From contig CACZUD010000008.1 of assembly GCA_902784345.1 (NCBI GenBank), forward strand, positions 1 through 39,804: 39,804 nt of DNA, in the 5' to 3' direction. The notes below the pieces were generated by a model. It did not search any database. It worked only from the letters and a program-made list of their open reading frames with translations, and was not told the origin of the DNA. The number at the start of each line of letters is the position of its first letter. Position 1 is the stretch's first letter. The translations under genes were made by a program, and so were the position numbers. Positions 391-15,106 of the stretch are shown one piece after another. The stretch is from an uncultured Pseudomonadota bacterium. GTDB taxonomy: Bacteria; Pseudomonadota; Alphaproteobacteria; Rs-D84.

Positions 391-391
391 T

Positions 392-1888: not shown

Positions 1889-1890
1889 AA

Positions 1891-2367
1891 ATGGAACAAG
1901 AAACCATATATAATTTACTTACAAATTCTGGATTTGAAAAAGTCCTGGTGGATTCTGATTTTGTTTATTTCCAAGATCCGTCTTGTATTTTTCCTGCGTT
2001 TGACACTCTGTTGGAATACGCATGGATTGCAATAATGGTTTTATTGGCAATTATGCTGTTTGGTTGGGGTGTTCTTTACATCAAAAACGGTGTGAAAATA
2101 GATACCCTGTTTAACAATGCGAAAACAATTATTCTTGTTCTGGGAATTTTGGCCATTGTAAAACCAATCGTAAATATAATTTATGGCGATAATTTATTTG
2201 GACAACAATGCGAAATTAAACAAGTATCAATGGCTGCTGTGAATGAATTACTGGAAATACGCAACAAAAAACTTGGGAAATCAGACGAAAATTTACTGTA
2301 CGAAAATTTTAACGTGATTGATTCTGGTCCTGTTTATAACGAAGAAAATTTTAAAACGGAAAAATAA
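1891..2367 (+). CDS. Two-span membrane protein of unknown function
   Basis: This 158-residue protein has two strong hydrophobic segments, about residues 40-67 (AWIAIMVLLAIMLFGWGVLY) and 78-100, and a charged C-terminal tail. Cysteines at about 33 and 109 lie outside the spans. The ATG follows the upstream stop by 2 nt with no obvious Shine-Dalgarno, which suggests coupled translation. The arrangement vaguely recalls small inner-membrane parts of secretion systems, but I cannot assign a family. It converges with radC; the two stop codons are only 2 nt apart, with no terminator hairpin between them. Confidence 0.75.
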   Translation: MEQETIYNLLTNSGFEKVLVDSDFVYFQDPSCIFPAFDTLLEYAWIAIMVLLAIMLFGWGVLYIKNGVKIDTLFNNAKTIILVLGILAIVKPIVNIIYGDNLFGQQCEIKQVSMAAVNELLEIRNKKLGKSDENLLYENFNVIDSGPVYNEENFKTEK

Positions 2368-2369
2368 AA

Positions 2370-3068
2370 TTATTTTAAACTTTTATCCAGCAAATGCATG
2401 TTGCGTGCAGAATAAAGAATATCCCCGGAAACAAGCAAATGGTCGTATAAACTTATACCGAGTTTCTGTAACGCGTTTTCTAATTCTATCGTGATTGAAA
2501 TATCTTGTTCTGAAAAACAAGTGTATCCACTTGGATGATTATGCAACATAACAAGACTGTGCGCATTTAAATCCAGCGCCCGTTTAACTATTTCACGAAC
2601 ATACACTGCCGCCCAATCGATTGTTCCACTGCTGTGCATTTCATCTTTGATTAACTTATATTGACTGTCCAGATAAAGTACGTGAAATTCTTCGACCGAT
2701 TTACCAGTTAATAATGTTCTGCAATAATTTTCCAATTTTTCATAATTATGAAATATAGGCGAAGTATCCAATACCGATTTATATTCCAATTCCATCAGTT
2801 TGTGTAACACTTTGAAAAATGTTGCAGTGTTTTCTTTAACTCCTTGGTTTTCTGTCAAAGATTCCATTGGCGCAGACAGCAAATTTGGTATTGTTCCGTA
2901 TTTCTTATAAAGTTGTCTTGATAATGCACGAACATCCCTGCGTGGAATCGCATAAGTTAACAACAATTCCAATATTTCATATTCTGTTAATTGCCCGTCA
3001 AGAAACTTTTGGCGCAAACGCGCACGATGTCCGGTCTGTAAAGATTGCGAATCTTCCGTTTTAATCAT
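2370..3068 (-). CDS. radC: RadC family JAB-domain protein
   Basis: This 232-residue protein matches the RadC (UPF0758) family: an N-terminal helix-hairpin-helix-like region and a C-terminal JAB/MPN-type metalloprotease fold. The metal motif H-x-H-x7-S-x2-D is intact (HNHPSG...SEQD, around residues 176-189). The loop after HNHPSG reads YTCF instead of the common DPTP, so it is somewhat divergent. The biological role of RadC is unsettled; a DNA repair role is no longer firmly supported. It overlaps map by 8 nt and is the last gene of the lptE-holA-map-radC operon. Confidence 0.88.
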   Translation of the reverse strand: MIKTEDSQSLQTGHRARLRQKFLDGQLTEYEILELLLTYAIPRRDVRALSRQLYKKYGTIPNLLSAPMESLTENQGVKENTATFFKVLHKLMELEYKSVLDTSPIFHNYEKLENYCRTLLTGKSVEEFHVLYLDSQYKLIKDEMHSSGTIDWAAVYVREIVKRALDLNAHSLVMLHNHPSGYTCFSEQDISITIELENALQKLGISLYDHLLVSGDILYSARNMHLLDKSLK

Positions 3069-3831
3069 GCGTCATTTTTTCTGTGAATATAATCACACCG
3101 TCTTCTGTTATTCCCAAGGTATGTTCCCATTGCGCAGACAAACCACCGTCTTCTGTGCGAACAGTCCAACCGTCTTGTTCGTCAGTTTTACATTTATATG
3201 TGCCAGTATTTATCATTGGTTCAATAGTGAATACAAAACCAGGTTGCATAATCAATTTATCGTATGCTTTGTCATAAAAATGCAAAATATTTGGGTTGTC
3301 ATGCATAACCTTGCCAATACCGTGTCCGCAATAATCACGAACAATAGAAAAACCATGTGGTTTAACAACGTCTTCTATGGTTTTACCAATTTCAGAAAGT
3401 GGAACCCCCGGTGCACAAATTGAAATCGCTGCATTCAATGCGTCTTGGCAGGTTTGAACCAATTCGCGCGCTTTGTTGGAAACATTACCAATCATAAACA
3501 TACGTGAAGCATCGCCATGAAATCCATGATATTCAGCTGTTAAATCAACATTTATTATATCGCCATCTTTTAATATAACATTATCATTTGGGATACCATG
3601 ACACACAACATCATTTATAGAAGTGCAAATACTTTTCGGATACCCCATATAACCCAAATCAGACGAACGTGCACCATTCGCTTTCAAGAATTCAGCAACC
3701 AATCTGTCAATTTCACCAGTCGAAACGCCCGCAACAATATGTGGCGTAATATAATCGAAACAACGTGCGACCAAATCACCAGAGGCACGCAATCTTTTAA
3801 AATCTTTTGGTGCATATACAGACGACAACAT
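3061..3831 (-). CDS. map: Type I methionine aminopeptidase
   Basis: This 256-residue cytoplasmic enzyme removes the initiator Met from new proteins. The five metal ligands are visible: two Asp in VDLTAEYHGFHGD, His in the GHGIG motif, Glu in TIEPMIN, and Glu in the WEHT motif near the C-terminus. The substrate-pocket CHGIP motif is also present. Length is typical of bacterial type I enzymes. The stop overlaps the radC start by 8 nt, and the start lies 2 nt after the holA stop. Confidence 0.96.
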   Translation of the reverse strand: MLSSVYAPKDFKRLRASGDLVARCFDYITPHIVAGVSTGEIDRLVAEFLKANGARSSDLGYMGYPKSICTSINDVVCHGIPNDNVILKDGDIINVDLTAEYHGFHGDASRMFMIGNVSNKARELVQTCQDALNAAISICAPGVPLSEIGKTIEDVVKPHGFSIVRDYCGHGIGKVMHDNPNILHFYDKAYDKLIMQPGFVFTIEPMINTGTYKCKTDEQDGWTVRTEDGGLSAQWEHTLGITEDGVIIFTEKMTHD

Positions 3832-3833
3832 TT

Positions 3834-4820
3834 TTATTTCCTTCGTTTTAAAGCCAACTTTGCGGCACGAACAGATAATTTTAATGAAAAATCACGTATT
3901 AAAATTTCTGGGTTCATACCACTGGTTCTGCACATTTTTTCCAAATCATTTAATTTAGACAAAACATTTACAATTTCGTTTTCTGGCCAAATTTTCACAG
4001 CCATATTAAATTTATCTGCAACTTTCCAAAACAGTTTTGGTAACTGCCCATCAACAACAGCAATCAATAATCTTGTAAAATGATTATACAACATACGAAC
4101 CAGCATATTTGCATCTGCGCCCGCATACAATAATCTATCCAGCGCAACCATAGTTTGATTTATATGTCCGGCAGTCAACGAATACATATAATCGTCAGCA
4201 CTGCTTGCCGAAGTATCAGGCAAACATTTTTCTACATCTTCCAAATCTACAACATGTTTATCAGAAACATAAATTGCGATTTTTTGTAAAAAACTGCGCG
4301 TGATTCCCCTGTCACCGCCCAAGTGAGACAACATATAAGACATCGCATCGGGGGTTATCTGATGAATGCCAGACGCCGCCGACAATTCTTTACGAATAAG
4401 AGTTTCCAATGTTTTGGTATCGTCAGAATAACATGCAATTGCGGCAATATTTGCACCGTCTTCGAATAGTTTTCTGAGTGATGCGGGACGCAAATCACCC
4501 GCTGTTACAATGACTGTTGCACAAAGAGAAGAAGATGTTACCAAATCGGCGATTATTTTGCTGTCGCCATCACCAGCCCCAGATATTATAACCGCCTTGC
4601 GACCACCGAACATAGACGGACTGCAACTTTCTGCGAATACAGCATCTTGTTTATCGCGCAATTCGTTTGCATCCAAAACCAACAAATTATCTTTTTCGAT
4701 TTCCAGTTTTTCGATTGCTTTATCGCACAATTCATCAACCAGACCAGCATCTGGACCGTATATCAACACAGCGTTAATTTTATCAATTCCAGAGTTAAAA
4801 TCTGATTCTTTCCACTTCAT
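3834..4820 (-). CDS. holA: DNA polymerase III subunit delta
   Basis: This 328-residue protein fits the delta subunit of the clamp loader, which opens the beta sliding clamp. It has the usual arrangement of a RecA-like domain I (residues about 1-140), a lid domain and a C-terminal helical collar. Sequence identity in this family is low, so the call leans on the YGPDAGLVDELC start, the SPSMFGGRK motif and the position after lptE, an order common in alphaproteobacteria. Its first base overlaps the last base of lptE. Confidence 0.9.
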   Translation of the reverse strand: MKWKESDFNSGIDKINAVLIYGPDAGLVDELCDKAIEKLEIEKDNLLVLDANELRDKQDAVFAESCSPSMFGGRKAVIISGAGDGDSKIIADLVTSSSLCATVIVTAGDLRPASLRKLFEDGANIAAIACYSDDTKTLETLIRKELSAASGIHQITPDAMSYMLSHLGGDRGITRSFLQKIAIYVSDKHVVDLEDVEKCLPDTSASSADDYMYSLTAGHINQTMVALDRLLYAGADANMLVRMLYNHFTRLLIAVVDGQLPKLFWKVADKFNMAVKIWPENEIVNVLSKLNDLEKMCRTSGMNPEILIRDFSLKLSVRAAKLALKRRK

Positions 4821-5278
4821 TATTTATTTTCTTGTTTTTGAACTTCGGTTATTACACGCATACTAATTTTTTCAGACAACTGATGAATAGTATTCATAAC
4901 AGCATTATTATACGAAGCATTTGATGCAACCAAATAACGCACAAAAGTATAACTTTCTGCAGCAGATTCTGTTGACGATGCAATTTCTTTATCGCCCTGC
5001 TTTAATGTATAAGATGCGTTCAATTTAACTTCTTGCCACACTGCATCACCTGCGCGTTCAAACGCTTTGTATTGAGTCACAGGTTCGCTTAAATTTACAA
5101 TCAGAGTATATTTAGCATTTTGTTCGTGAATGCCGCCAAATTGAGCATTCAAAGAATTACGCAATTCAATACCGTTAATACCACTGATTGGCGCGACATA
5201 AACGTCTGTTTTATCACCTGAAAAAACAGGTTTAAAACTGCATGCGGCCACCATTAAAAGCAAAATCAATTTTTTCAT
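4820..5278 (-). CDS. lptE: LPS-assembly lipoprotein LptE-like
   Basis: This 152-residue protein has a short lipoprotein signal peptide with lipobox VAAC, so Cys13 would be acylated. The mature part has the length and beta-rich look of LptE (YVAPISGINGIELRNSL, then TLIVNLSEP), the outer-membrane partner that plugs the LptD barrel and helps deliver LPS. The position directly before holA is the classic alphaproteobacterial arrangement and gives much of the confidence, because sequence conservation is weak. The Shine-Dalgarno AGGAA lies just upstream. Confidence 0.85.
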   Translation of the reverse strand: MKKLILLLMVAACSFKPVFSGDKTDVYVAPISGINGIELRNSLNAQFGGIHEQNAKYTLIVNLSEPVTQYKAFERAGDAVWQEVKLNASYTLKQGDKEIASSTESAAESYTFVRYLVASNASYNNAVMNTIHQLSEKISMRVITEVQKQENK

Positions 5279-5290
5279 GTCTTTTTCCTG

Positions 5291-5319
5291 TTGAACTTTA
5301 CCATAATATTAGCTACAAT
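5291..5319 (+). promoter_or_regulatory. Promoter of the Cys-rich secreted protein gene
   Basis: Plus strand: -35 TTGAAC (5291-5296), 17-bp spacer, -10 TACAAT (5314-5319). Its -10 is separated from the opposing -10 by only 2 bp. Confidence 0.75.
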
Positions 5320-5334
5320 TTTAATAAATCGCAA
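5306..5334 (-). promoter_or_regulatory. Promoter of the lptE-holA-map-radC operon
   Basis: Minus strand: -35 TTGCGA (5329-5334), 17-bp spacer, -10 TAATAT (5306-5311). It interleaves with the plus-strand promoter at 5291-5319, so both cannot be occupied at once. Confidence 0.75.
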
Positions 5335-5343
5335 GGGGGGATC

Positions 5344-6585
5344 TTGAATATTTTTTTAATTCTTTTGTCCGTAATAATTATGGCTGGGTATTATGTTATA
5401 TCGTCCCCATCCCAGCGAATAATCGAACACGAAACCGAATATGCTATAAAAAAGGCGGATTTGCGATCAATTGCCGAATGTGTTGTAGCAACCCAAAATT
5501 CATCAATGTATGGCGAAAAATTTTTCGATCCTTGTGTGGAAAGATATGAAATCACCAGCCAATATATTTGTATGAACGATAAATACAATATTGTTTCTTG
5601 CGATGCGGAAAATTCAAAAGCACCTGCATTTAATTTTATTATAACTACGTCCTATGTTTTGCCAGAATCAGAATACAACAATATGTTAGAGATATTGGAA
5701 AAACACTATCCAGACGCAGGAACGTTTGGTGTATTTGTTAATCCTGATTTAATGACCGCAGGATCTGTGTCCAATCGCCCCATTCCGAAAAAAATCATTG
5801 AAGCGGCAGATTTACAAACAGGTCAGCTGATGTATTTAATGCAATATACAATACCAGATAAAACCATAGATTATCCTTTGGTTGACGGGTCAAATATTAT
5901 TTGTCCAGAAGGAACGATGAAAACTTTCAGATTTGGTCGTTGGCAGTGTATTGCATATAATTATAAAATATCTTGCACGGGCGACACGATTTGGGACGCT
6001 GATTTAATGGATTGCGTTGCAGACGAAAGTCGTAAGCCATTATGTGCAAATAATCAAACCGCTGTCATGGTTGAAGATATATGGGAATGTGTGGATCCTT
6101 TTTCAGACCAAACGTGCCCTGATAATATGGTTGCACGCTTAAATTACGCAACATTAACATGGGAATGCGTGGAAGATCCGAACGCCACAAAAAACGTCAA
6201 GAAATGCGACCACATTGCCAAGATGCCAAAAACACGCGGTGCGATTGGCACAACATTGCGCGTCCGTTCTGTATCGTGTACAGATTGCGAAACCGCTGTC
6301 ATAGACGAAGATACGTGCAAAACTTTTTGTATCCCAGATGTAAACAAATTAACCGACCCCAGATGTTACGATGGGAATATTTCAGAATGCAGTGGCCCAA
6401 ATCGTGGCTTGTATTTCGGTTTTTCATCAAAATCACGCATAGATGGAATATCTGCATTAGAAAACGAAACAATCATACTGGACCGCAATCACAGTCAAAA
6501 CAGAATGTTTAACTGTATGGATTGTGGCGAAGGCGTAATAGATACAGAAAATTCAATTTCCCCATACACTGCGATTTGTAAATAA
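5344..6585 (+). CDS. Membrane-anchored Cys-rich modular protein
   Basis: I chose a TTG start at 5344 because a strong aaggggggat Shine-Dalgarno (5333-5342) precedes it and both overlapping promoters lie upstream; an in-frame ATG at 5242 would start inside lptE. The 413-residue product begins with an uncleaved-looking membrane anchor (residues 2-19) followed by an exported domain. Residues about 190-275 hold four tandem modules of the form C-x(10-16)-W/L-x-C, and more Cys pairs follow to the end (SCTDCE, NCMDCG). Disulfide-stabilised surface or periplasmic modules are likely. I do not recognise the family. Its last 33 nt overlap the 3' end of the converging endolysin gene. Confidence 0.8.
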   Translation: MNIFLILLSVIIMAGYYVISSPSQRIIEHETEYAIKKADLRSIAECVVATQNSSMYGEKFFDPCVERYEITSQYICMNDKYNIVSCDAENSKAPAFNFIITTSYVLPESEYNNMLEILEKHYPDAGTFGVFVNPDLMTAGSVSNRPIPKKIIEAADLQTGQLMYLMQYTIPDKTIDYPLVDGSNIICPEGTMKTFRFGRWQCIAYNYKISCTGDTIWDADLMDCVADESRKPLCANNQTAVMVEDIWECVDPFSDQTCPDNMVARLNYATLTWECVEDPNATKNVKKCDHIAKMPKTRGAIGTTLRVRSVSCTDCETAVIDEDTCKTFCIPDVNKLTDPRCYDGNISECSGPNRGLYFGFSSKSRIDGISALENETIILDRNHSQNRMFNCMDCGEGVIDTENSISPYTAICK

Positions 6586-7065
6586 TTCATATTCCACTTT
6601 TCTGCGTTTTGTTAAACCAGGCATTTCACGTCCGCACGATTTGTTCCATGCCATCCATGCAGATTCTAATGTTGGATAGCGCCTATTTTGAAAATTACGA
6701 TTGTTTACATACTTTACAACTGTTGAATCAGTAAAATTTTTTATTCCAATATTATAAGCAAACATAACCAACGCATCATACTGATTTTGCGTCAGTGCCG
6801 AAGCGATACCATTTTGAACAGCACATTCCGCCACCGCAATATCCGCACGCAATAATTCGGTTGCTTGTGATTCAGAAATTCCGCTTCTAAAATCTTCGCC
6901 AGCTTTTATCAAATGCCCATAACCAATTGTTGCACCACGCGGCAAAGCTTCTTTCGGTTTTACTGGTTTACCCGTTTGGTCGTCATAGATAATATGTTTA
7001 TCGCCAATTTTTACACAACCTTCCAGTTGTTTCAGCAGGTTTATACCTTTATCACTTATTTTCAT
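6553..7065 (-). CDS. Phage-type lysozyme (GH24 endolysin)
   Basis: This 170-residue protein is a glycoside hydrolase family 24 muramidase, the T4/P22 lysozyme type that cuts peptidoglycan glycan strands. The catalytic triad is present: Glu15 in LEG, Asp28 in YDD, and Thr46 in ATIGYGH. The C-terminal half carries family helices (QYDALVMFAYNIG, then GLTKRRKVEYELF). There is no signal peptide, as in phage endolysins that need a holin, and no holin gene is seen nearby. It starts behind a strong aagggggg Shine-Dalgarno. The leader holds two intrinsic terminators downstream of a good promoter, which suggests gated expression. Probably phage-derived. Confidence 0.9.
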   Translation of the reverse strand: MKISDKGINLLKQLEGCVKIGDKHIIYDDQTGKPVKPKEALPRGATIGYGHLIKAGEDFRSGISESQATELLRADIAVAECAVQNGIASALTQNQYDALVMFAYNIGIKNFTDSTVVKYVNNRNFQNRRYPTLESAWMAWNKSCGREMPGLTKRRKVEYELFTNRSVWGN

Positions 7066-7082
7066 GAATATCCCCCCTTTAT

Positions 7083-7130
7083 AAAAAAAAACCGCAAATG
7101 CGGAATAAAAAAAGACGGCAAAATGCCGTC
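7083..7130 (-). terminator. Tandem intrinsic terminators in front of the endolysin gene
   Basis: Minus strand, in order of transcription: hairpin gacggca-ttt-tgccgtc (7130-7114) with a U-rich tail (7113-7104), then hairpin ccgca-tt-tgcgg (7103-7092) with nine U (7091-7083). Both lie between the promoter at 7146-7174 and the endolysin start at 7065. They may also end transcripts of the GT8 gene upstream. Confidence 0.8.
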
Positions 7131-7145
7131 AATCAAAGTGTTTGT

Positions 7146-7174
7146 ATTATATCATAAAATCGTAAAAAAATCAA
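7146..7174 (-). promoter_or_regulatory. Sigma70 promoter upstream of the gated endolysin leader
   Basis: Minus strand: -35 TTGATT (7169-7174), 17-bp spacer, consensus -10 TATAAT (7146-7151) in an extended TGA-TATAAT context. The start point would be near 7139, giving a leader of about 74 nt that contains both terminator hairpins. Confidence 0.65.
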
Positions 7175-7189
7175 TAAAATCAGGTATCT

Positions 7190-8098
7190 TTAGTAATTGT
7201 TTTTTACAGTGTTATAAAATTTGCGATACATATCAAATGTAAGGAATCTTTTTATTTTTGGGTCCCAAGGCTTTATATGTTCTGCATAATGCAACATCAC
7301 GGGACGACGCAATTCACGATACATTTTAGCATCCATTGTTTTTAAAAAACTGTATCCTGCGGCAACAATCACGTTAAATTTGCGCGACATAGGTTTTATA
7401 CGACCACGACATACATTGTTTAACATATCTTGATCTGGCAGGCCACTATCGTTATTTTCAGCCCAACTTACCATTTCTGAATATTTATTTTCTTTGCGCA
7501 TTTGTGCGATGTTCATCACCAGAAATCCACTGTTAATATACGCCGGACTGTCAAAACATCCTGCAAGTAAATCTGTCCCCATTTTTAATTCATTTGCTTC
7601 ACGCAAATCACGAACAAACAACACATCTACGTCGGCATATATAATACGTTCCACAGTGTCCGGTAATAATTTTGGCAACATACAACGCCACCATATCGCA
7701 TTTGGCCACCAACTGGAACGTGCATGATCATAATCTTTATTTGGTTTCAAGAATATGATTTTGCCATTAGAATAACGTCCATAAATATATTCCAATATTT
7801 TTGTCTGGGATTTTTTTGTTATGTCTGACACACAATAGATATCGTATTTACACCCAGGCGAATTTTCCAGCAAAGAAGAAATAGCAATCAAAGCAAACGA
7901 AATATAACCTTCGTTAAAACAGAAAGCTACATTTATTGTTTTGTTGTATTTTGATGTATCCAGTTTTACATTGAACCTTGGGAATGTTGCCCACGACACA
8001 AAATTTCTTTTGGCGACATTCGATGGAATTAGCAATTCGGCAACATGCAAAAATACACGTTTCACATGTTTAAAATATACAGCTGACAATTTTTCCAT
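7190..8098 (-). CDS. Family 8 glycosyltransferase
   Basis: This 302-residue enzyme matches GT8 (LgtC/WaaJ-like) glycosyltransferases, which add a hexose from a nucleotide sugar to LPS or other surface glycans with retention. The metal-binding D-x-D is visible as YADVDVLF near residue 155. Family motifs follow: YINSGFLVMN, then DQDMLN, and a C-terminal HYAEHIKPW with the metal-coordinating His. It lies near a second GT8 fused to a GT4, so both may build the same surface polymer. It has its own promoter and an aagga Shine-Dalgarno. Confidence 0.9.
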   Translation of the reverse strand: MEKLSAVYFKHVKRVFLHVAELLIPSNVAKRNFVSWATFPRFNVKLDTSKYNKTINVAFCFNEGYISFALIAISSLLENSPGCKYDIYCVSDITKKSQTKILEYIYGRYSNGKIIFLKPNKDYDHARSSWWPNAIWWRCMLPKLLPDTVERIIYADVDVLFVRDLREANELKMGTDLLAGCFDSPAYINSGFLVMNIAQMRKENKYSEMVSWAENNDSGLPDQDMLNNVCRGRIKPMSRKFNVIVAAGYSFLKTMDAKMYRELRRPVMLHYAEHIKPWDPKIKRFLTFDMYRKFYNTVKNNY

Positions 8099-8125
8099 AA
8101 AAAATTCCTTTTTGATTTAACATTC

Positions 8126-8154
8126 AGTATAAAATATCGAACATGAAATGTAAA
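8126..8154 (-). promoter_or_regulatory. Promoter of the GT8 gene
   Basis: Minus strand: -35 TTTACA (8149-8154), 17-bp spacer, -10 TATACT (8126-8131). Confidence 0.7.
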
Positions 8155-8195
8155 TACCAATATATGTAAGCAAGCAAAAAAGTAAAATATTATTA

Positions 8196-8224
8196 TTGAA
8201 ATAATGCATGATTTGTGATATAAT
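8196..8224 (+). promoter_or_regulatory. Strong sigma70 promoter upstream of the tail-fibre-like gene
   Basis: Plus strand: -35 TTGAAA (8196-8201), 17-bp spacer, -10 TATAAT (8219-8224) with an extended TGA just before it. Transcription would start near 8231, directly in front of two terminators. Confidence 0.8.
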
Positions 8225-8234
8225 GTCAACATTC

Positions 8235-8292
8235 AGCGGACAATATTTGTCTGCTATTTTTTTGGTCTCTGCATTTTGCAGGGGCCTTTTTT
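8235..8292 (+). terminator. Tandem intrinsic terminators in the tail-fibre leader
   Basis: The first hairpin at 8235-8255 has a 9-bp stem with one G-U pair and loop TAT, followed by seven U (8257-8263). The second has a 10-bp stem, 8264-8273 with 8277-8286, followed by six U. Both are downstream of the promoter and upstream of the start codon. Confidence 0.8.
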
Positions 8293-8303
8293 GTTATAAC
8301 AAT

Positions 8304-8336
8304 CCCACTTCGCCAAGGCTTCGTGGGACAAGGAGG
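8304..8336 (+). promoter_or_regulatory. Leader hairpin and Shine-Dalgarno of the tail-fibre-like gene
   Basis: A hairpin at 8304-8327 (cccac...gtggg, with an inner gcc-aa-ggc) ends 2 nt before a perfect aaggagg at 8330-8336, which fixes the start at 8344. The hairpin shares the cttcgccaaggcttcg motif with the clpB leader repeat at 22626-22680. Confidence 0.65.
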
Positions 8337-8343
8337 ACAAATA

Positions 8344-9270
8344 ATGAACAAATATACATTTATGGGAAACGGGCGCAATAAGGATTTTTATTTCACCTTT
8401 TCCTTTTTCTCTAAGGGCGACATAGTCGTTAAAATAAACGACGTAATCGCGACAGGATATGGTGTTTTCTGTATCCCTGGTTCTGGCAACAACGATTTTC
8501 CATTTACAGGCGGACATATACACTTTGCCACAGCACCAAAATCGACAGATATTGTAACCATAGAACGCAAATTACAACTAAACCGCATTATTGACTATCA
8601 ACCAACAGCATCACTGACCCCTACCACTGTTAACCAAGATATGAATTATTTCTTTGAATTGTTGAAAGATATAAGAAACGATTTACAGGGGTTCCAAGAA
8701 ACTTATGCCGAATTCACAGACACAGAAAGCGCGCAAACCTTGCTTGAACGTATAAACGCTGCGATGGAAGAAATCGACACAGTTTCCGGACAAATCGAGG
8801 CCATGGGCGATATAACAACAATTCGCACAAGCCTTACAAACCTTGGAACATCTGTAACTAATTTAACAGAATCTTTAAATACACTTTCAAGCACTGTCGG
8901 CGGTCATACAACAACAATAGGTGATCACACAACCAGTATTGGAAACATTCAAACTTCTTTAAGCGGCATAAAAATTAGCCCGGATTATGCAAACGGCGAA
9001 AGCAAAGCATGGAACACAGAATACACAGCAACAAAACCAGGTTTATTAGTGTTTTGCGCATGGTGCAATGGCAACGGCAGTGGTGTATACGCAATTGTAA
9101 ATGGCGCAACTTTATATATTTCCGCAGATAATAAACCTATGGGGCCAGGATGGACAGGTGGGGACCACCAAGCATATTTTGGTGGCAACTTACCGATTGG
9201 TGCCGGCGATACTTATAAACTCTGCGGTGGCAGCGGATATCAAAAATTGACATTTTTTCCATACAAATAA
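8344..9270 (+). CDS. T7-type phage tail-fibre-like protein
   Basis: The ATG at 8344 follows a perfect Shine-Dalgarno. The 308-residue protein resembles the N-terminal region of T7 gp17-type tail fibres, which dock fibres to the virion. It has an aromatic start (FYFTFSFF), a compact beta-rich stretch, then the VTIERKLQLNRIIDYQ and LTPTTVNQDMNYF motifs near residues 75-105. Residues about 105-205 are a predicted coiled coil with Thr/Ser/Ile repeats (TTTIGDHTTSIGNIQTSL). Residues 210-308 are Gly-rich and beta-like, as in receptor-binding tips. No other virion genes are nearby, so this may be a domesticated or stranded phage gene, possibly a surface adhesin. Expression appears gated by two terminators. 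Confidence 0.75.
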   Translation: MNKYTFMGNGRNKDFYFTFSFFSKGDIVVKINDVIATGYGVFCIPGSGNNDFPFTGGHIHFATAPKSTDIVTIERKLQLNRIIDYQPTASLTPTTVNQDMNYFFELLKDIRNDLQGFQETYAEFTDTESAQTLLERINAAMEEIDTVSGQIEAMGDITTIRTSLTNLGTSVTNLTESLNTLSSTVGGHTTTIGDHTTSIGNIQTSLSGIKISPDYANGESKAWNTEYTATKPGLLVFCAWCNGNGSGVYAIVNGATLYISADNKPMGPGWTGGDHQAYFGGNLPIGAGDTYKLCGGSGYQKLTFFPYK

Positions 9271-9271
9271 G

Positions 9272-9296
9272 AAACGGGCATTGCCCGTTTTTTATT
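9272..9296. terminator. Bidirectional terminator between convergent genes
   Basis: The hairpin aaacgggca/ttgcccgttt at 9272-9290 has a U-run on the plus strand, serving the tail-fibre-like gene. On the minus strand it follows the stop of the glycosyltransferase fusion, with a weaker U-tract. Confidence 0.85.
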
Positions 9297-11220
9297 TTTT
9301 TGTTTCTTGCCATATCACATTTCTTAAATCGTTTACAAACCGTGGAATATTGTGCGTTTCACGAATATATTTGATTGCTGATTCTGCTTTTTGTTTATAC
9401 AACTTGTCATTTTCCATCAATTCACGAATTGCCGGTATAAAATTATCCACGCCGTCAAAACCATCACCTGGATTATCACCTGTGAACAAACCAAATTTTT
9501 CAACCAAGCCTTCGCGTTCCAAATCTGATACCAGCACAGTTCCATATGACAAGCATTCCAGCCAAGATATTGGTATCCCTTCCCAGATTGCAGTGCTACA
9601 TAATATACGTGCAGATTTTATAAGTTCTGCTTTTTCTTTGCCATCAACATGGCCTACAAAATGCAAATTTGGTATATCGTTTTTCATATAAGGTGCCAAC
9701 ATACGTTCGTTATCTTTGCGGTGTCTGAAAAATTGTCCAAGGACATAAAAATCGTATTCAGGCATACGCTTTGCTATTTCACAAAATACCCAAGCACGTT
9801 TTTGTGCTTCCAATCGACCAAGGAATATTACACTCTTTTCTTTTTTCTTGATATCAAACTTGAAATCCATGTCTAATTCAATCGGGTTAGGCAAATATTG
9901 TATAGATGTGTTTTCTGGCAAATAATACAATTCCTTTGCCAAAGGATTTAAACTGTAACCTTGTGATATGAATTTTACGCGTTTTTCGTCATTCAATTCA
10001 TGCACTGTGTCGTATATATTTTGATGATAGAAACAAGGATCTTTTATTGACTTCATTGTGTCAATAACATTATCCCATGCTGATTTTGGTCTTGGGTCTT
10101 GCACCCACAAAATCAATTTTTTATTTTTATTTGTTTCGTGTTTTAATACAAAATCATCTGTTAATTCTATCGACAAATACACATCATAATTCTTGCGTTT
10201 CAAAAACCATTTTGACGCCCAATGTCTTCGTGGCAAACGATAAAGTTTTACGCCATCTTCGCGATATACGCGTTCTGTGAATCTGTGACCGCCAGAACCC
10301 AACAACACATCAACACGGATATCTTCATTTGGTATATATTTAGCGATAAACTTTCGTGCCAAGAACCCATATCCACCAAAAGCGGTTCCTGCGCCACCAA
10401 AAAATTTATCAATTAATAATCCAACACGGATTTTTCTTTTAGTCATTATTTTTTCAGTTTTTTCATAATATTTTTTCCAAATCTTTTTCAATTCGTGTTT
10501 GCTGTCAACAAGCCAAGGTTTGTTTGCACCGTTATAGTGTATTATTCTTGCTTTTTTTGTTTTACGTGGTTCGTTATGCATATTTGCCGATGTAAAATTA
10601 TATATACTATCTATTTCCAGTACTTTATTTTTACAAACGATATTCATAACATCTTGATCGTTAAATTTGATTTTTCCAGATAATTTTTCGGTTTCTTTTA
10701 TTAATTTAGCCCCCATTTTTTCTTTGCGCATAATATTCAGATTCATTAATAATATACCGGCATTTACATATAAATCATCATCTGCAAAACCTATTTCTGG
10801 CAAATAATTTATATCACGAATATACAAGTCACGAACACCCGCAATTATGCAATTTTTCATATCAGTATCATATAATTTGCTAATATTGCCGTTTACAATT
10901 ATATCGGCATCCATATACAAAATTTTATCAACATCTGGCAATAAATCTGCTATTAAATATCTGTAATAAGTTTCATTTGAAATGTATTTTATCGTTGAAT
11001 TTAAATGAGCAGTTTTGTTTGTATCCACTTTGATGAATTTCACAGACGCGTTACGAAAATATGAAAACAGTTTATTTACACGGACTTTTGATTCGTCAGT
11101 TATATCAGATGAAAAAATATAAACATTCAATTCGTGTTTTTTATTATTTAAAGCCAAAGAAGTTAAAACAACCAATAATTGTTCTATATATTTATCGTTT
11201 ACACAAAAAGCAATATTCAT
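9292..11220 (-). CDS. GT8-GT4 glycosyltransferase fusion
   Basis: This 642-residue protein is two glycosyltransferases in one chain. Residues 1 to about 255 are GT8, with MDADIIV as the D-x-D motif, NAGILLMNLN, DQDVMN and HYNGANKPW. From Met259 (MTKRKIRVGLLIDKFFGG) the chain looks like the start of a GT4 enzyme and continues with VIFLGRLEAQKR, then IWEGIPISWLECLSYG, the nucleotide-sugar EX7E region. The junction is in frame and the second half begins like a native start, so this probably arose by loss of a stop between neighbouring genes. The start at 11220 is backed by GGAG 6 nt upstream. It likely adds two successive sugars to a surface glycan; substrates cannot be read from sequence. Confidence 0.88.
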   Translation of the reverse strand: MNIAFCVNDKYIEQLLVVLTSLALNNKKHELNVYIFSSDITDESKVRVNKLFSYFRNASVKFIKVDTNKTAHLNSTIKYISNETYYRYLIADLLPDVDKILYMDADIIVNGNISKLYDTDMKNCIIAGVRDLYIRDINYLPEIGFADDDLYVNAGILLMNLNIMRKEKMGAKLIKETEKLSGKIKFNDQDVMNIVCKNKVLEIDSIYNFTSANMHNEPRKTKKARIIHYNGANKPWLVDSKHELKKIWKKYYEKTEKIMTKRKIRVGLLIDKFFGGAGTAFGGYGFLARKFIAKYIPNEDIRVDVLLGSGGHRFTERVYREDGVKLYRLPRRHWASKWFLKRKNYDVYLSIELTDDFVLKHETNKNKKLILWVQDPRPKSAWDNVIDTMKSIKDPCFYHQNIYDTVHELNDEKRVKFISQGYSLNPLAKELYYLPENTSIQYLPNPIELDMDFKFDIKKKEKSVIFLGRLEAQKRAWVFCEIAKRMPEYDFYVLGQFFRHRKDNERMLAPYMKNDIPNLHFVGHVDGKEKAELIKSARILCSTAIWEGIPISWLECLSYGTVLVSDLEREGLVEKFGLFTGDNPGDGFDGVDNFIPAIRELMENDKLYKQKAESAIKYIRETHNIPRFVNDLRNVIWQETKK

Positions 11221-11306
11221 TTTTTCTCCATTTACAAACTGGTGATACATAACTTAAAACAAGAATAAACACCTATTGACCCATATTCACTTAAGTGTAA
11301 AAATGA

Positions 11307-11409
11307 TTATTTGGTGTTTAAAGTTTGTTTAACAGCACCATACAAAAATCTTTCTTTAAAATCAAGTTTTTCCGGTGTTTTCGTTTGTTGTTCAAATCTA
11401 TGTATTTAT
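11307..11409 (-). pseudogene. Possible remnant of a coding sequence (C-terminal end)
   Basis: Upstream of the glycosyltransferase fusion, about 33 codons on the minus strand read as a plausible protein tail (IHRFEQQTKTPEKLDF, then KERFLYGAV, KQTLNTK and a stop). They have no start and are preceded by stops. A short open frame in AT-rich DNA can arise by chance, so this is a weak call. Confidence 0.25.
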
Positions 11410-11482
11410 TATTTGGCAAAGATACAAAAATATGTTTTGCAAAATTCGTAATATAATTTACCCTAGAAAAAAAGGATAAGTA

Positions 11483-12262
11483 ATGATAACAGATACTTTT
11501 GATAACGATACTCCTGCTATTATAAACCCAAAAGAAAACCCTGATGCTTTTGCGGTTGACGCTTGTATTGTCGCTTTCTCGTATAAAATAGAAGAATTTG
11601 TGTTATCTCGTTTTAATCCGATAAAAATTGGTGAAATTCATTTTTCAACAGGTATCACGCCAATATGGTTAATTGAATATAATGGGAAAAAGTTTGCTTT
11701 TTTCAAAACTTATGTTGGGGCCCCTGCTTGTGTTGGTTCTATTGAAGATTCCTTGGCGGAAATCAACACTAAAAAATATATTCTTTTCGGCAGCGCAGGT
11801 TGCTTAAACAAAGAAATTGCGCGCGGCAAAGTAATGGTTCCAAATGCCGCTTGGCGCGACGAAGGGACTTCTTACCATTATATGTCGGCAAGCGATTGGG
11901 TTGACATTCCTAATAGTGAAAAAGTATGCGAATTTATGACACAAAGTAAATTACCATTTGTGTGCGGAAAAACTTGGACAACAGATTCTTTTTATCGTGA
12001 AACACGCGGCAACTTTGAAAAACGTAAAGCCGATGGTTGCATTTGTGTTGAAATGGAATGTGCAGCTGTTCAAGCAATGTGCAATTTTCGTGGACTTGAA
12101 TTTTATACATTTTTTATAAGCAGTGATTTGCTTGATGCACCAGAATGGGACGAACGTCATGCCCTGAATGGAACAGACACGGGCAGTCAGCACGATGCAC
12201 AATATTTTGAAATCGCACTGGAATTTGCAGATTTTATTTGTTGCGATTCAGGCAAGATGTAA
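11483..12262 (+). CDS. Nucleoside phosphorylase family protein
   Basis: This 259-residue protein fits the purine/uridine phosphorylase superfamily, which cleaves nucleosides with phosphate in salvage. Visible signs are the phosphate-loop-like FGSAGCLN near residue 97, a KVMVPNAAWRDEGTSYHY segment, and the ribose/base-binding VEMECAAVQAM near residue 192, where the Glu-Met-Glu core is typical. The C-terminal region is the usual alpha/beta end. Whether the substrate is uridine or a purine nucleoside is not clear. Start supported by aagga 7 nt upstream. Neighbours do not suggest a pathway. Confidence 0.85.
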   Translation: MITDTFDNDTPAIINPKENPDAFAVDACIVAFSYKIEEFVLSRFNPIKIGEIHFSTGITPIWLIEYNGKKFAFFKTYVGAPACVGSIEDSLAEINTKKYILFGSAGCLNKEIARGKVMVPNAAWRDEGTSYHYMSASDWVDIPNSEKVCEFMTQSKLPFVCGKTWTTDSFYRETRGNFEKRKADGCICVEMECAAVQAMCNFRGLEFYTFFISSDLLDAPEWDERHALNGTDTGSQHDAQYFEIALEFADFICCDSGKM

Positions 12263-12283
12263 AAATTCGAAACGGTTATACTT

Positions 12284-12421
12284 TTATCTGCTTTTTACTT
12301 TTCTTTGTTGGGCTAATTCTGCTCTTCTTTGTTTACATGCCAGAACGAAATTTTGATAGTCTTCGTTATTTAAGGAATATTCTTCTTGCTTTCTTTTTTC
12401 AAATTCAGCTTGGCTTAACAT
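12284..12421 (-). CDS. Small highly charged protein (45 aa)
   Basis: A 45-codon frame on the minus strand starts at 12421 with aagga 5 nt before the ATG. It encodes a helical, charged peptide (MLSQAEFEKRKQEEYSLN, then LACKQRRAELAQQRK). The composition is protein-like and it converges on the nucleoside phosphorylase gene without overlap. I do not recognise a family. The longer plus-strand frame over this area runs through it with poor composition. Confidence 0.55.
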   Translation of the reverse strand: MLSQAEFEKRKQEEYSLNNEDYQNFVLACKQRRAELAQQRKVKSR

Positions 12422-12550
12422 ATATGTCCTTTTTATTTGTTTGCCAAGGCATGGCTACTAGATTTTTGCGGAATGTAAAGATTTTTTACGATTACAACTT
12501 GCAAAAACAAACATTTCGTGTACAGTGTACTATGCGAAAAGGCAAAAAAA

Positions 12551-12811
12551 ATGAAACACGAACCAGAACGAAAACCGATAAATATACGCAATTTTCTTGT
12601 TGTTGTTTTTGTTGTATATGGAATTACTTATATGATATTCAGCATTACACTTCCAGAAGCACAAAAACGAAAACACGAACAAGACAGACAGGACATCATA
12701 GAAAACAAAGTAAAACAACACGAAAAAACTTTGCCACATTACAAAGAATATTTGCAGACCAAACAACAAATCGCACATTATCGCGACAGTTTACAACGAG
12801 CAATGAGATAA
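12551..12811 (+). CDS. Small single-span membrane protein
   Basis: The ATG at 12551 has aaagg upstream. The 86-residue product has a basic N-terminus, one membrane span at about residues 17-37 (FLVVVFVVYGITYMIFSI), and a highly charged helical C-terminal half (KRKHEQDRQDIIENKVKQH). The topology, with a short cytoplasmic end and a coiled-coil-prone outer part, resembles FtsL/FtsB-type proteins, but no signature allows that name. An intrinsic terminator follows directly. Confidence 0.65.
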   Translation: MKHEPERKPINIRNFLVVVFVVYGITYMIFSITLPEAQKRKHEQDRQDIIENKVKQHEKTLPHYKEYLQTKQQIAHYRDSLQRAMR

Positions 12812-12812
12812 A

Positions 12813-12836
12813 AAACACCCGTTTGGGTGTTTTTTG
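12813..12836. terminator. Intrinsic terminator
   Basis: The hairpin aacaccc-gttt-gggtgtt is flanked by A- and T-runs on both sides and ends the small membrane protein gene. On the minus strand it lies just after a degraded copy of the tRNA-Glu 3' end. Confidence 0.85.
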
Positions 12837-12837
12837 A

Positions 12838-12858
12838 TTCTTGGCAGGGCCACTTAAG
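12838..12858 (-). repeat. Degenerate copy of the tRNA-Glu 3' end
   Basis: On the plus strand, ttcttggcagggccactt matches the tRNA-Glu fragment at 13855-13875 at about 15 of 21 positions. As there, a terminator hairpin follows it on the minus strand. It could be the outer boundary of an old insertion that carries the SGNH hydrolase gene. Confidence 0.35.
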
Positions 12859-12930
12859 CAATTCACGAGCTGAGTTTATGCGTGATTTGTTGTTATTCGG
12901 GAAAGAAATTAAGGTGTTTTTGAATACACA

Positions 12931-13641
12931 TTACTTTGTTTCAGGGTGATATTGTAAATATGTATTTTCAAAAACACTCTCTACAACCGCTTGCCCTTGT
13001 TCATTTAGATGTATTCCATCTTCACAAATGTAATCACTTAATTTATGAATGTCTAATAAGGTTTCACGAACAGGCACCACAGGAATATTGTTATCTATGG
13101 CAATTTGTTTAAATGCAACTGCATATAATTCTTGATGTCTGTATATAAAATTCACATCCCCCAAGAATTGCAAAATATTTGCGGCACGTTGCTTATCACC
13201 CTTGGAAATCCATTTAAAATATTTATTTGCATCAATTGGTGGCAAAGACATTATAGCAATACGTTTTCCTAATTTGCGTAATTTATCAATGATAGTTTGA
13301 GTATTTACCTTAAACTGTTCTAATGAAACACTTGGTTTAATATCTTTGTTGGTCGGATTTTCTGCAACAATATCCCAATTAAAATCGCAATCGTTTCCAC
13401 CAAATTCAACCAAAAACAAATCGTTTTCTAATCCGTTATTAAATACACCATCTGCTATTTTTACAGCTTTATCTGTTGTACAACCAAATCTGGAATAATT
13501 TTTTACAGAAACAGGCATATTACGACTAAACACATCTACGGCATTGTTATCTGATATTTTATATTTTTTAGAGTCATCATCTAAAACAATTCCTTTTGAC
13601 AAAGAATCACCAAACACATTGATATTATCTATGATTTTCAT
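12931..13641 (-). CDS. SGNH/GDSL hydrolase family protein
   Basis: This 236-residue protein fits the SGNH (GDSL-like) esterase/lipase fold. Block I is FGDSLSKG with the nucleophile Ser near residue 13, block III is GGND near residue 77, and block V is DGIHLNEQG with catalytic Asp and His near 212-215. It has no signal peptide. Related enzymes remove acyl groups from glycans or lipids. The gene lies between two fragments of the tRNA-Glu 3' end, so it may be cargo of an inserted element. Its leader contains an extended hairpin and a terminator-like hairpin. Confidence 0.85.
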   Translation of the reverse strand: MKIIDNINVFGDSLSKGIVLDDDSKKYKISDNNAVDVFSRNMPVSVKNYSRFGCTTDKAVKIADGVFNNGLENDLFLVEFGGNDCDFNWDIVAENPTNKDIKPSVSLEQFKVNTQTIIDKLRKLGKRIAIMSLPPIDANKYFKWISKGDKQRAANILQFLGDVNFIYRHQELYAVAFKQIAIDNNIPVVPVRETLLDIHKLSDYICEDGIHLNEQGQAVVESVFENTYLQYHPETK

Positions 13642-13720
13642 TAAATATCCCCTTTTTCAACAAACAAAATATTGAAATAAAAACCAGAAAAATTCAAGCA
13701 CAAAACAATACATACAAAAA

Positions 13721-13804
13721 AAGGTTAGATTTCTAACCTTTTCTTTTTAAAAGTTCGTAAATGTGTAAAATAGGTATAGATTTTACCGCCCAACTTACGA
13801 ACTT
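13721..13804 (-). terminator. Two hairpins upstream of the SGNH hydrolase gene
   Basis: In order of minus-strand transcription: a nested hairpin with outer 10-bp arms (13795-13804 with 13751-13760) and an inner 7-bp stem (13780-13786 with 13765-13771), then a 9-bp hairpin aaggttaga-tt-tctaacctt (13740-13721) followed by seven U. The second looks like a real terminator. No clear promoter was found in front of them. Confidence 0.6.
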
Positions 13805-13830
13805 GTGAAAGTATTGGAAATCTAATAAAA

Positions 13831-13852
13831 AACCGACCCAAAAGGTCGGTTT
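13831..13852 (-). terminator. Terminator after the tRNA-Glu 3' fragment
   Basis: Hairpin aaccgacc/ggtcggtt with a U-run on the minus strand, placed directly downstream of the truncated tRNA-Glu copy. Confidence 0.75.
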
Positions 13853-13856
13853 GAAT

Positions 13857-13874
13857 TTTTGGCAGCCCCACTCG
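13857..13874 (-). repeat. Truncated copy of the tRNA-Glu 3' end
   Basis: These 18 bp are identical to 14092-14109, which covers the CCA end, acceptor strand and start of the T stem of tRNA-Glu. The copy lies about 235 bp downstream of the tRNA and could be an att-type scar. Confidence 0.75.
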
Positions 13875-13977
13875 TGCTTGATAAACAATAACCAAACCTA
13901 AACGCAAAAACTCTATTAAATATATCCGTTTTTGCAGGTTTGCTAATTGTTCATCTGCGAATTGGTCATGCACACCT

Positions 13978-14056
13978 TGGGCTTTGCCCACAAAAACTTC
14001 GTTTTTGAACGACACTACGTGCCGTTGGTGCTCTGACCTAATCCTTCGTGGAGAGC
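13978..14056 (-). ncRNA. Four abutting hairpins downstream of tRNA-Glu
   Basis: Consecutive stem-loops lie end to end: tgggc-ttt-gccca (13978-13990), caaaaac-ttc-gtttttg (13991-14007), aacgacac-tac-gtgccgtt with one internal mismatch (14008-14026), and a gctct...agagc stem (14030-14056). They sit between the tRNA-Glu terminator and its truncated copy. They may be a structured RNA or a folded DNA element; a 115-codon frame also crosses this stretch but is unconvincing. The rest of 13642-14094 holds only the terminators and repeats listed separately. Confidence 0.4.
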
Positions 14057-14066
14057 AAAATAAAAC

Positions 14067-14090
14067 GACCACCTAAATGGTGGTCTTTTT
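14067..14090 (-). terminator. Terminator of the tRNA-Asp/tRNA-Glu transcript
   Basis: Hairpin gaccacc/ggtggtc (14067-14085), 9 nt after the encoded CCA of tRNA-Glu. The minus-strand tail is U-rich but broken. Confidence 0.65.
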
Positions 14091-14094
14091 ATTT

Positions 14095-14169
14095 TGGCAG
14101 CCCCACTCGGATTTGAACCGGGATTCTCGCCTTGAAAGGGCGGTGTCCTAACCATTAGACGATGGGGCC
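14095..14169 (-). tRNA. tRNA-Glu (anticodon TTC)
   Basis: A full cloverleaf can be drawn. Acceptor GGCCCCA pairs with TGGGGCT, the anticodon loop contains TTC, the T loop is GTTCAAA, and CCA is encoded at 14097-14095. It is transcribed with tRNA-Asp from the promoter at 14302-14330. Confidence 0.96.
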
Positions 14170-14212
14170 ATGGACTCTTAGTAAACCGCCGTTTTACCGG
14201 CGGTAAAATCTC

Positions 14213-14290
14213 TGGCGGGATGTAAGGGGCTCGAACCCTCGACCTTCTGCGTGACAGGCAGACGCTCTAAACCAGCTGAGCTAACACCCC
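14213..14290 (-). tRNA. tRNA-Asp (anticodon GTC)
   Basis: Acceptor GGGGTGT pairs with ACATCCC, the anticodon loop CTGTCAC gives GTC, the T loop is normal, and CCA is encoded at 14215-14213. A hairpin (ccgccg...cggcgg, about 14187-14203) separates it from tRNA-Glu and may guide processing. Confidence 0.96.
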
Positions 14291-14301
14291 AGAGCAGAGA
14301 T

Positions 14302-14330
14302 ATAATATAATGAACAAATCCAAAATGCAA
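14302..14330 (-). promoter_or_regulatory. Promoter of the tRNA-Asp/tRNA-Glu operon
   Basis: Minus strand: -35 TTGCAT (14325-14330), 17-bp spacer, -10 TATTAT (14302-14307), starting about 5 nt upstream of the mature tRNA-Asp. Confidence 0.7.
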
Positions 14331-14360
14331 GTATTTTTTTCGTTTTTTCTTTGCGATTTA

Positions 14361-14389
14361 TTGACAATGTTTACAAACAAACTTATAAT
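14361..14389 (+). promoter_or_regulatory. Perfect consensus sigma70 promoter of lptM and tRNA-Leu
   Basis: Plus strand: TTGACA (14361-14366), exactly 17 bp, TATAAT (14384-14389). The -10 ends 6 nt before the lptM ATG at 14396, so the transcript should be leaderless. The same transcript would continue into tRNA-Leu. Confidence 0.85.
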
Positions 14390-14395
14390 GCAATC

Positions 14396-14518
14396 ATGAA
14401 AAAGATAATATTTTTGATTTGTGTGGTTTTGTTATGCGCAGTGGTATTGGGTGGATGCGGTGTAAAGTCTGACTTAGCACACGAAAGCGATTACCCGCGC
14501 AATTATCCTGTGTATTAA
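14396..14518 (+). CDS. lptM: LptM-type small lipoprotein (YifL family)
   Basis: This 40-residue lipoprotein has a signal peptide ending in the lipobox LGGC, with lipidation expected at Cys21. The mature tail CGVKSDLA followed by DYPRNYP matches the CGxKxxL...DxPRxYP pattern of the YifL/LptM family, which helps the LptD-LptE translocon mature at the outer membrane. lptE at 4820-5278 would be a partner. There is no Shine-Dalgarno; the mRNA appears leaderless from a perfect consensus promoter. The tRNA-Leu gene starts 6 nt after the stop, so the mRNA and tRNA probably share a transcript. Confidence 0.8.
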   Translation: MKKIIFLICVVLLCAVVLGGCGVKSDLAHESDYPRNYPVY

Positions 14519-14524
14519 AACAAT

Positions 14525-14609
14525 GCGGGTATGGCGGAACTGGCAGACGCGCTGGATTTAGGTTCCAGTGGGGTAACCCGTAAGAGTTCAAGTCTCTTTA
14601 CCCGCACCA
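14525..14609 (+). tRNA. tRNA-Leu (anticodon TAG)
   Basis: A class II tRNA with a long variable arm. Acceptor GCGGGTA pairs with TACCCGC, the anticodon is TAG, the T loop is GTTCAAG, and CCA is encoded at 14607-14609. A fragment of its 3' end recurs at 14707. Confidence 0.96.
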
Positions 14610-14736
14610 AGAATGAATTTTATCTGTGTGAATCGCGTATCCTTGCTATTTCATCTATGACTCGTTGCTAATAACGCAACTCGTCAAGATTTCTTTACGC
14701 GCGGATTCTCTTTACCCGCACCAAGAATGAATTTTA
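14593..14736 (+). repeat. Direct repeat of the tRNA-Leu(TAG) 3' end
   Basis: A 30-bp sequence covering the tRNA 3' end plus 13 bp beyond it (14593-14622) recurs exactly at 14707-14736, 114 bp downstream. The 84 bp in between have no gene but hold an imperfect hairpin (gac..gttgc/gcaac..gtc). This looks like an att-site pair left by a deleted element or a tandem duplication. Confidence 0.85.
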
Positions 14737-14768
14737 CAAAGTAAAATTGTCCTTATTATAAAAAAAAC

Positions 14769-14797
14769 TTGATTTTCAATAAAATATAACATACAAT
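14769..14797 (+). promoter_or_regulatory. Promoter of rpmG
   Basis: TTGATT (14769-14774), 17 bp, TACAAT (14792-14797); aaagg lies 8 nt before the ATG. Confidence 0.75.
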
Positions 14798-14827
14798 GCC
14801 CGAAGTATTTAAACAAAGGTTATTAAA

Positions 14828-15007
14828 ATGGCATCTAAAAAAGGCAGCAAGGAAGTTGTAAAACTGGAAAACAAAGAAACCGGTTTCTATTACACAACTA
14901 CAAAAAATACAAAATCTGAAAACACTCAAGGCAAAATGAAATTCCGTAAATACGACCCAAAATTACGTAAACACGTTGTATTCACAGAAGCAAAAATGAG
15001 CCACTAA
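14828..15007 (+). CDS. rpmG: 50S ribosomal protein L33
   Basis: A 59-residue ribosomal protein bL33. It begins MASKKGSKEVVKLE and has the GFYYTTTKNTK and KMKFRKYDPKLRKHV blocks of the alphaproteobacterial form. The two CxxC zinc motifs of zinc-binding L33 are absent, so this is the zinc-independent form. It is monocistronic, with its own promoter and a strong terminator. Confidence 0.96.
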   Translation: MASKKGSKEVVKLENKETGFYYTTTKNTKSENTQGKMKFRKYDPKLRKHVVFTEAKMSH

Positions 15008-15031
15008 TTTTCAGGCTATATCAATTTGAAA

Positions 15032-15059
15032 AAACACCTGCAATCGCAGGTGTTTTTTT
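15032..15059 (+). terminator. Terminator of rpmG
   Basis: Hairpin aacacctgc-aatc-gcaggtgtt followed by a run of T. Confidence 0.9.
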
Positions 15060-15060
15060 A

Positions 15061-15104: not shown

Positions 15105-15106
15105 TT

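Follow-up and report, generated by a model that had tools for sequence, protein, structure and literature searches.

A promoter followed by tandem terminators before dispersed phage-derived genes in Enterousia-type alphaproteobacteria: a proposed antitermination-controlled GTA-like regulon

Introduction

In lambdoid phages, the late genes for lysis and structural proteins lie behind a strong promoter, pR', and the tR' terminators that follow it, and this arrangement is opened by Q. The gene transfer agent (GTA) of Caulobacter employs an antiterminator, GafZ, which binds between the -35 and -10 elements and lets the polymerase pass terminators (PMC11150451). AlpA of Pseudomonas aeruginosa, as cited in that paper, is a chromosomal antiterminator that has a binding element in the promoter region and controls a cell-death pathway. 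Podovirus-type GTA-like clusters are near-ubiquitous in the gut genus Faecalibacterium (FpGTA; PMC12946183).

Here, we analyzed a stretch of 39,804 nucleotides (the window), which is contig 8 of a 785-kb assembly that is 84% complete. Among named records, the closest are MAGs of gut alphaproteobacteria, including Candidatus Enterousia merdequi and Ca. E. intestinigallinarum, from which we infer that the bacterium belongs to Enterousia, a genus with reduced genomes that is placed in the uncultured order Rs-D84 (PMC12306168). The locus of interest, which holds a tail-fibre-like gene, is bacterial chromosome and not phage.

Results

A strong predicted promoter is followed by two predicted terminators

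An earlier note on this DNA had read a TTGAAA-17-TATAAT promoter with an RNA start near 8231, followed by two complete terminators, and direct reading together with a scan bears out both elements (Table 1). Within positions 1-20000 of the window, the promoter has 11/12 matches and ranks third among 77 promoter-like sites; the same stretch holds 36 terminator-like sites, hairpins 1 and 2 among them, compared with 15.9 +/- 4.9 in shuffles. Relatives have a terminator at the position that corresponds to each of terminators 1 and 2. A second promoter at GTTATAAC, past terminator 2, was considered and rejected, as it has no consistent -35 element (a variable stem occupies that position) and is absent from the operon and endolysin leaders described below.

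Table 1. Features of the fibre locus and of the second leader copy (window coordinates unless another locus is named)
Feature	Position	Strand	Details
Endolysin (phage lysozyme), 170 aa	6553..7065	-	Phage_lysozyme 3e-28; downstream of second leader
Second leader copy	7083..7174	-	-35 TTGATT 7174-7169; -10 TGATATAAT 7154-7146
Second leader, predicted terminators		-	stem of terminator 1, 7130-7114; stem of terminator 2, 7103-7092, just 4 bp, with T9
Predicted fibre promoter	8196..8224	+	-35 TTGAAA 8196-8201, 17-nt spacer, TG-extended -10 TGATATAAT 8216-8224; predicted transcription start ~8231
Predicted intrinsic terminator 1	8235..8263	+	stem 8235-8255, 9 bp, 4 GC; T7 8257-8263
Predicted intrinsic terminator 2	8264..8292	+	stem 8264-8286, 10 bp, 6 GC; T6 8287-8292
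Conserved TTTTTTGTTATAACAA	8287..8302	+	split here by inserted repeat
Hairpin 3, inserted dispersed palindromic repeat	8303..8328	+	outside conserved leader
Shine-Dalgarno AAGGAGG	8330..8336	+	sequence reading
Tail-fibre-like gene, 308 aa	8344..9270	+	podophage-type N-terminal attachment domain, coiled coil, variable C-terminus
Predicted terminator at fibre gene end	9265..9301	+	stem 9265-9297 plus T-rich tail
Dispersed palindromic repeat, TTCGCCAAGGCTTCG core	8303-8328, 22648-22662; L002 1501-1536; L003

The third hairpin that the earlier note had placed beside the Shine-Dalgarno is present, but it is foreign to the conserved leader and proves to be a copy of the repeat TTCGCCAAGGCTTCG, which is found unaltered at three sites of the window's genome, with a diverged copy in front of a thrS-like gene. 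The insertion breaks up the conserved TTTTTTGTTATAACAAAAGGAG; most relatives' leaders lack hairpin 3, and inserted copies of the repeat are found in either orientation and at other positions in the leaders of three relatives (L044, L082 and L042). Hairpin 3 is dispensable for the mechanism proposed below. In most relatives, TTTTTTGTTATAACAA continues as AAGGAG, and a weak AU hairpin over the Shine-Dalgarno is possible. Relatives' leaders (e.g., L031 and L053) have a terminator 2 T-tract that can pair with an A-rich stretch before the Shine-Dalgarno, and such a weak hairpin may provide additional translational control following read-through.

The form of the leader is conserved before fibre genes

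Residues 6-106 of the fibre protein match phage tail families (phrog_30017, 7e-10; phrog_1640 'tail protein', 6e-8), which backs the call of a phage tail-fibre-like gene; the C-terminus, preceded by the coiled coil, differs among relatives. Homologues, or a short paralogue with the same N-terminal domain, occur in 137 of 156 genus genomes. Searches of viral contigs with the fibre protein and of phage records with the window DNA returned no match, and the fibre and its leader hence do not derive from a catalogued phage. On the minus strand, family 8 glycosyltransferases lie on either side of the fibre gene (7190-8098 and 9292-11250), the second being fused to a group 1 domain.

Fibre homologues of about 60 species are preceded by this leader. 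In 62 full-length fibre genes, its order is TTGATTTTT...TTTATGATATAAT, a hairpin with a T-tract, a second hairpin with a T-tract, TTTTTTGTTATAACAAAAGGAG and the ATG, where the promoter consensus is TTGATTTTT-N-TTTATGATATAAT. A first covariance model was sequence-only, since MAFFT misaligned the variable stems and RNAalifold yielded no pairs, and a per-sequence terminator detector with shuffles was therefore used instead. This detector found two terminators in 55 of the 62 leaders and one in the remaining 7; in dinucleotide shuffles of the same leaders, two were found in 2.1% and one in 20%. The combination of a promoter and two terminators is thus not due to chance, and the hairpins, whose loss from relatives that keep the gene was specifically looked for, are retained in dozens of species. 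An arm-exchange test was biased because the arms had been picked for pairing, and the shuffle test is the valid control. Among the 55 two-terminator leaders, the 5' arms of the two hairpins have 48 and 49 distinct sequences, which indicates that the terminator form is kept, and not the sequence. A T-tract (median, 6-7 T in 8 positions) comes directly after nearly every hairpin. A fibre paralogue of 178-182 aa carries no leader, as expected for a gene internal to an operon.

The same leader precedes other phage-derived units

A second copy of the leader lies in the window upstream of a predicted endolysin gene (Table 1). Elsewhere in the window's genome, the leader precedes the first gene of a podovirus-like head-tail operon on contig 5, and a version with one terminator precedes an Mtd_N fibre gene on contig 9. 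The phage-derived units are accordingly scattered: the head-tail cluster on contig 5, a fibre gene and the endolysin on contig 8, and a further fibre gene on contig 9. Operon leaders from 68 named relatives contain two terminators in 63 cases and one in 5, whereas 0.7% of shuffles have two. Of 30 endolysin loci scanned, 15 have a promoter that passes the filter, and under a stricter stem rule 10 of these have two terminators and 5 have one. Most of the remaining endolysin loci carry the leader by eye, with a weaker -35 element; a few lie inside other operons or have no leader. Across all units, some leaders hold only one terminator.

Specificity was evaluated in the window's genome, nearly all of which was read, and in the complete genome G003 (OX097180.1). 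Together they contain 67 extended -10 promoters within 260 nt of an ORF, with two terminators in between in 6 cases, one in 4 and none in 57; other promoters of comparable strength have no terminators. The six two-terminator pairs comprise the fibre gene and operon of the window's genome, and in G003 a fibre gene, the operon, a GH108 endolysin and a 216-aa gene, so that five are phage-derived and one is of unknown function. The Mtd_N fibre gene is one of the four one-terminator pairs. The window endolysin is absent from the 67 pairs, probably due to spurious overlapping ORFs that made its promoter look coding. The 216-aa gene of G003 lies some 2 kb from the GH108 endolysin and has the two-terminator leader in full (L287, promoter at 19800, minus strand; ~79.2 kb), which makes it a candidate for a further member of the regulon.

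The head-tail cluster is widespread in the order and nearly always in single copy

Encoded in the contig-5 cluster are a T7-type scaffold and a Phage_capsid_2 coat, two tail proteins and a fibre N-domain, a head-tail connector/portal, and a T7-like terminase that is divided into two pieces; a further product weakly matches a cell-wall hydrolase. The gene order is: winged-helix protein, birA, leader, g1, scaffold, coat, tail A, tail B, 115-aa protein, (fibre N) and terminase N; then a 213-aa protein, XRE and dnaB on the opposite strand; then terminase C and portal. The large terminase is thereby split between its ATPase and nuclease parts by the opposite-strand genes (L078:10397-15175, contig 5). 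This order is kept in 80 named loci as far as each contig extends, with few exceptions. The embedded DnaB has the replicative-helicase equivalog PRK09165 as its best match, above the phage DnaB model. No phage replication or integration genes were found in the cluster, where the ORFs with matches are structural or packaging genes.

The coat gene is present in 144 of 156 genus genomes, 178 of 201 order genomes and 22 of 23 genera, nearly always as a single copy. For close pairs, dN/dS of coat and portal is ~0.04-0.07; tubA values of L165 and L166 were left out owing to indel misregistration. Absence of the GTA-like cluster from genomes G034 and G130 was rejected as a test of the regulators: both are also without the essential dnaB, and the absence most likely reflects a gap in assembly or binning. 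These features suggest that the head-tail cluster is a domesticated element and probably a gene transfer agent. We refer to it as GTA-like and not as a GTA, as the latter would package random host DNA in particles.

More distant coat relatives (~60% identity) occur in viral contigs with portal, scaffold, coat and tail genes and a contiguous terminase, and no two-terminator leader was detected in these. One viral contig (L430) has a coat 68% identical, the gene order of the Enterousia cluster and an uninterrupted terminase, and is possibly an intermediate that preceded the terminase split. IMG/VR contigs L383-L429 and MT838907.1 (L381), which have been catalogued as viruses, contain pieces of the chromosomal cluster or of relatives. 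Elsewhere in the window, the minus strand of 35496-38762 encodes several short secreted-looking proteins, of which 35906-36811 matches a phage tail-fibre profile (phrog_28766, 6e-20); its signal-peptide-like start suggests that the product is probably a surface protein.

Discussion

Proposed mechanism

That strong promoters run straight into terminators at several scattered units of one element points to termination as the control point, and we strongly infer that the leader acts as a terminator gate. We propose that the leader is an on-switch for one unit of a dispersed podovirus-like element in Enterousia-type alphaproteobacteria. A strong sigma-70-type promoter would fire, and the polymerase would reach one or two terminators within ~60 nt; with the gate closed, only a short RNA would normally be made, an RNA of ~60 nt being the expected by-product. 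Under inducing conditions, a trans-acting factor would load on the polymerase at or near the promoters and render it terminator-resistant, which would lead to joint expression of the head-tail operon, fibre genes and endolysin, and potentially to particles that transfer DNA. We consider it rather probable that these units form a dispersed GTA-like regulon with a promoter-proximal terminator gate and a trans-acting processive antiterminator, similar to Q and GafZ in operation. The wider proposal, that a podovirus-derived GTA spans Rs-D84 with its units shut by tandem terminators and opened together by a single antiterminator, which the host would encode and which would represent an undescribed family, stands in our judgment at even chances.

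The earlier note had drawn an analogy to the pR'-tR' arrangement and antitermination, which is the best-supported reading now that the leader is seen to be common to phage-derived genes and to many species; the setting, however, is chromosomal, and the fibre gene would be one unit of a dispersed GTA-like regulon. The leaders have in common a TTGAYTTTT tract and a TTT-TG extended -10 element. The T-tract after the -35 element, which is partly present in other promoters of both genomes, is the sole shared candidate for a possible loading site. As to the factor itself, the proteins that neighbour the cluster showed no relation to known antiterminators, and no Q homologue was found among the proteins examined. 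The candidates are neighbours only: the OmpR-like winged-helix protein (139 aa) upstream of the operon, the XRE regulator (335 aa) and the 213-aa protein. Fold searches did not bear out two of these as antiterminators, as the winged-helix protein gave weak matches to a generic OmpR-like domain, and the 213-aa protein gave no fold matches. The one-terminator leaders, the 4-bp second stem at the window endolysin and the endolysin homologues devoid of a leader also weigh against the model.

Alternative explanations

First, the leader terminators may be leaky and expression mere read-through, so that the costly or lethal particle genes are trickled constitutively through tandem terminators with no dedicated antiterminator. 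The conservation of terminators in form and not in sequence fits this explanation, and so does the outcome of the search for a factor or a clear binding site among neighbour proteins and shared promoter tracts, where none was found. Related GTAs nevertheless have dedicated activators and an antiterminator (PMC11150451), and a burst is normally needed for particle and lysis genes; moreover, building a weak unit from a strong promoter and two terminators would be wasteful. We regard attenuated expression of this kind as unlikely.

Second, 5' stem-loops stabilize some bacterial and phage mRNAs, and the hairpins, instead of terminating, could stabilize the 5' ends of strongly expressed structural mRNAs or serve as sites for their processing. 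That the two-hairpin units are nearly all virion or lysis genes agrees with such a role, whereas the T-tract after nearly every hairpin would be unneeded for stabilization and hairpins in tandem would be redundant, which makes this explanation improbable.

Third, a stand-alone RNA of ~30-60 nt might be the actual product and have its own role, with the genes mostly expressed by other means. Although the predicted RNA is short, structured and terminator-ended, the hairpin sequences vary freely across species, the leaders show no conserved unpaired seed, and the unit remains linked to phage-derived genes; we therefore consider this still less probable than stabilization.

Ordinary prophages that re-enter genomes with a Q-type late promoter of phage are a very improbable source. 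In their favour, the genes are of podovirus descent, and the more distant coats in viral contigs lie in a phage-like order with no leader detected. The Enterousia cluster, however, is near-universal and almost always single copy; it is interleaved with birA and dnaB in an order that is fixed over the 80 named loci, its terminase is split, its coat and portal are under strong purifying selection, and the units are dispersed over the chromosome.

Finally, a cis-acting attenuator, in which opening of the terminators would fall to a riboswitch, a T-box or a leader peptide and which the earlier note had entertained as a ligand or ribosome event, would fit terminators located in a 5' leader but is the least credible explanation, since (i) once the two stems are disallowed, folding of the leaders is no more stable than that of shuffles (median z +0.37 and +0.29), which also speaks for a trans factor on the polymerase, (ii) tRNAs are the only Rfam families that match the window at the gathering threshold, (iii) the room before hairpin 1 is too small for an aptamer, and (iv) inspection of a number of leaders by eye revealed no leader ORF.

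Significance

The literature searched contained no paper naming both Rs-D84 and gene transfer agents. The Enterousia element would be a second podovirus-type GTA-like case, this one alphaproteobacterial, and its mode of control was not found reported. Caulobacter provides the one GTA that we found described under antitermination, with the terminator inside one operon, and in Enterousia the same logic is apparently multiplied across the genome. If the antitermination model is true, the regulon would be defined by antitermination and not by activators, and short RNAs ending at the T-tracts and a single factor that opens all units are predicted. A promoter with tandem terminators is a clear signature by which more GTA genes and regulons could be found. 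The presence of a GTA-like element in most sampled genomes of the order, despite sizes of ~0.5-1.1 Mb, means that the upkeep of a costly element needs explaining.

Comparison with known systems

The closest named phage coats are those of Pelagibacter phage EXVC031P Hodr (45% identity) and of Vibrio phages (~33%), which are free phages, unlike the chromosomal Enterousia cluster; in the part of Hodr that was examined, the detector did not find a leader of this type. FpGTA resembles the Enterousia element in having a structural operon with fibre and lysis genes at separate loci, but differs in its Gram-positive host and in that its particles have been seen by microscopy and proteomics; the text of that paper does not mention promoters, terminators or antitermination (PMC12946183).

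Regarding control, the lambdoid pR'-tR' unit has the same layout of promoter and then terminators and would operate alike, although lambdoid phages have one such promoter each, whereas Enterousia has many chromosomal units with their own tandem terminators at about +5 to +60. AlpA, insofar as it is described in the citing paper, is a chromosomal antiterminator with a promoter element, as the proposed factor would be, for other genes and in another host. The Caulobacter crescentus GTA with its GafY/GafZ system likewise comprises an alphaproteobacterial main cluster and dispersed accessory genes, and its antiterminator is loaded at the promoter and bypasses a terminator, as is proposed here; in Caulobacter, however, the first gene precedes the terminator, and the action of GafZ is confined to the main cluster (PMC11150451). 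GafZ is the best analogue of the proposed factor, with Q and AlpA alike in operation, and the Enterousia arrangement is set apart from that of Caulobacter by terminators between the promoter and first gene, by several dispersed units and by an element of podovirus type.
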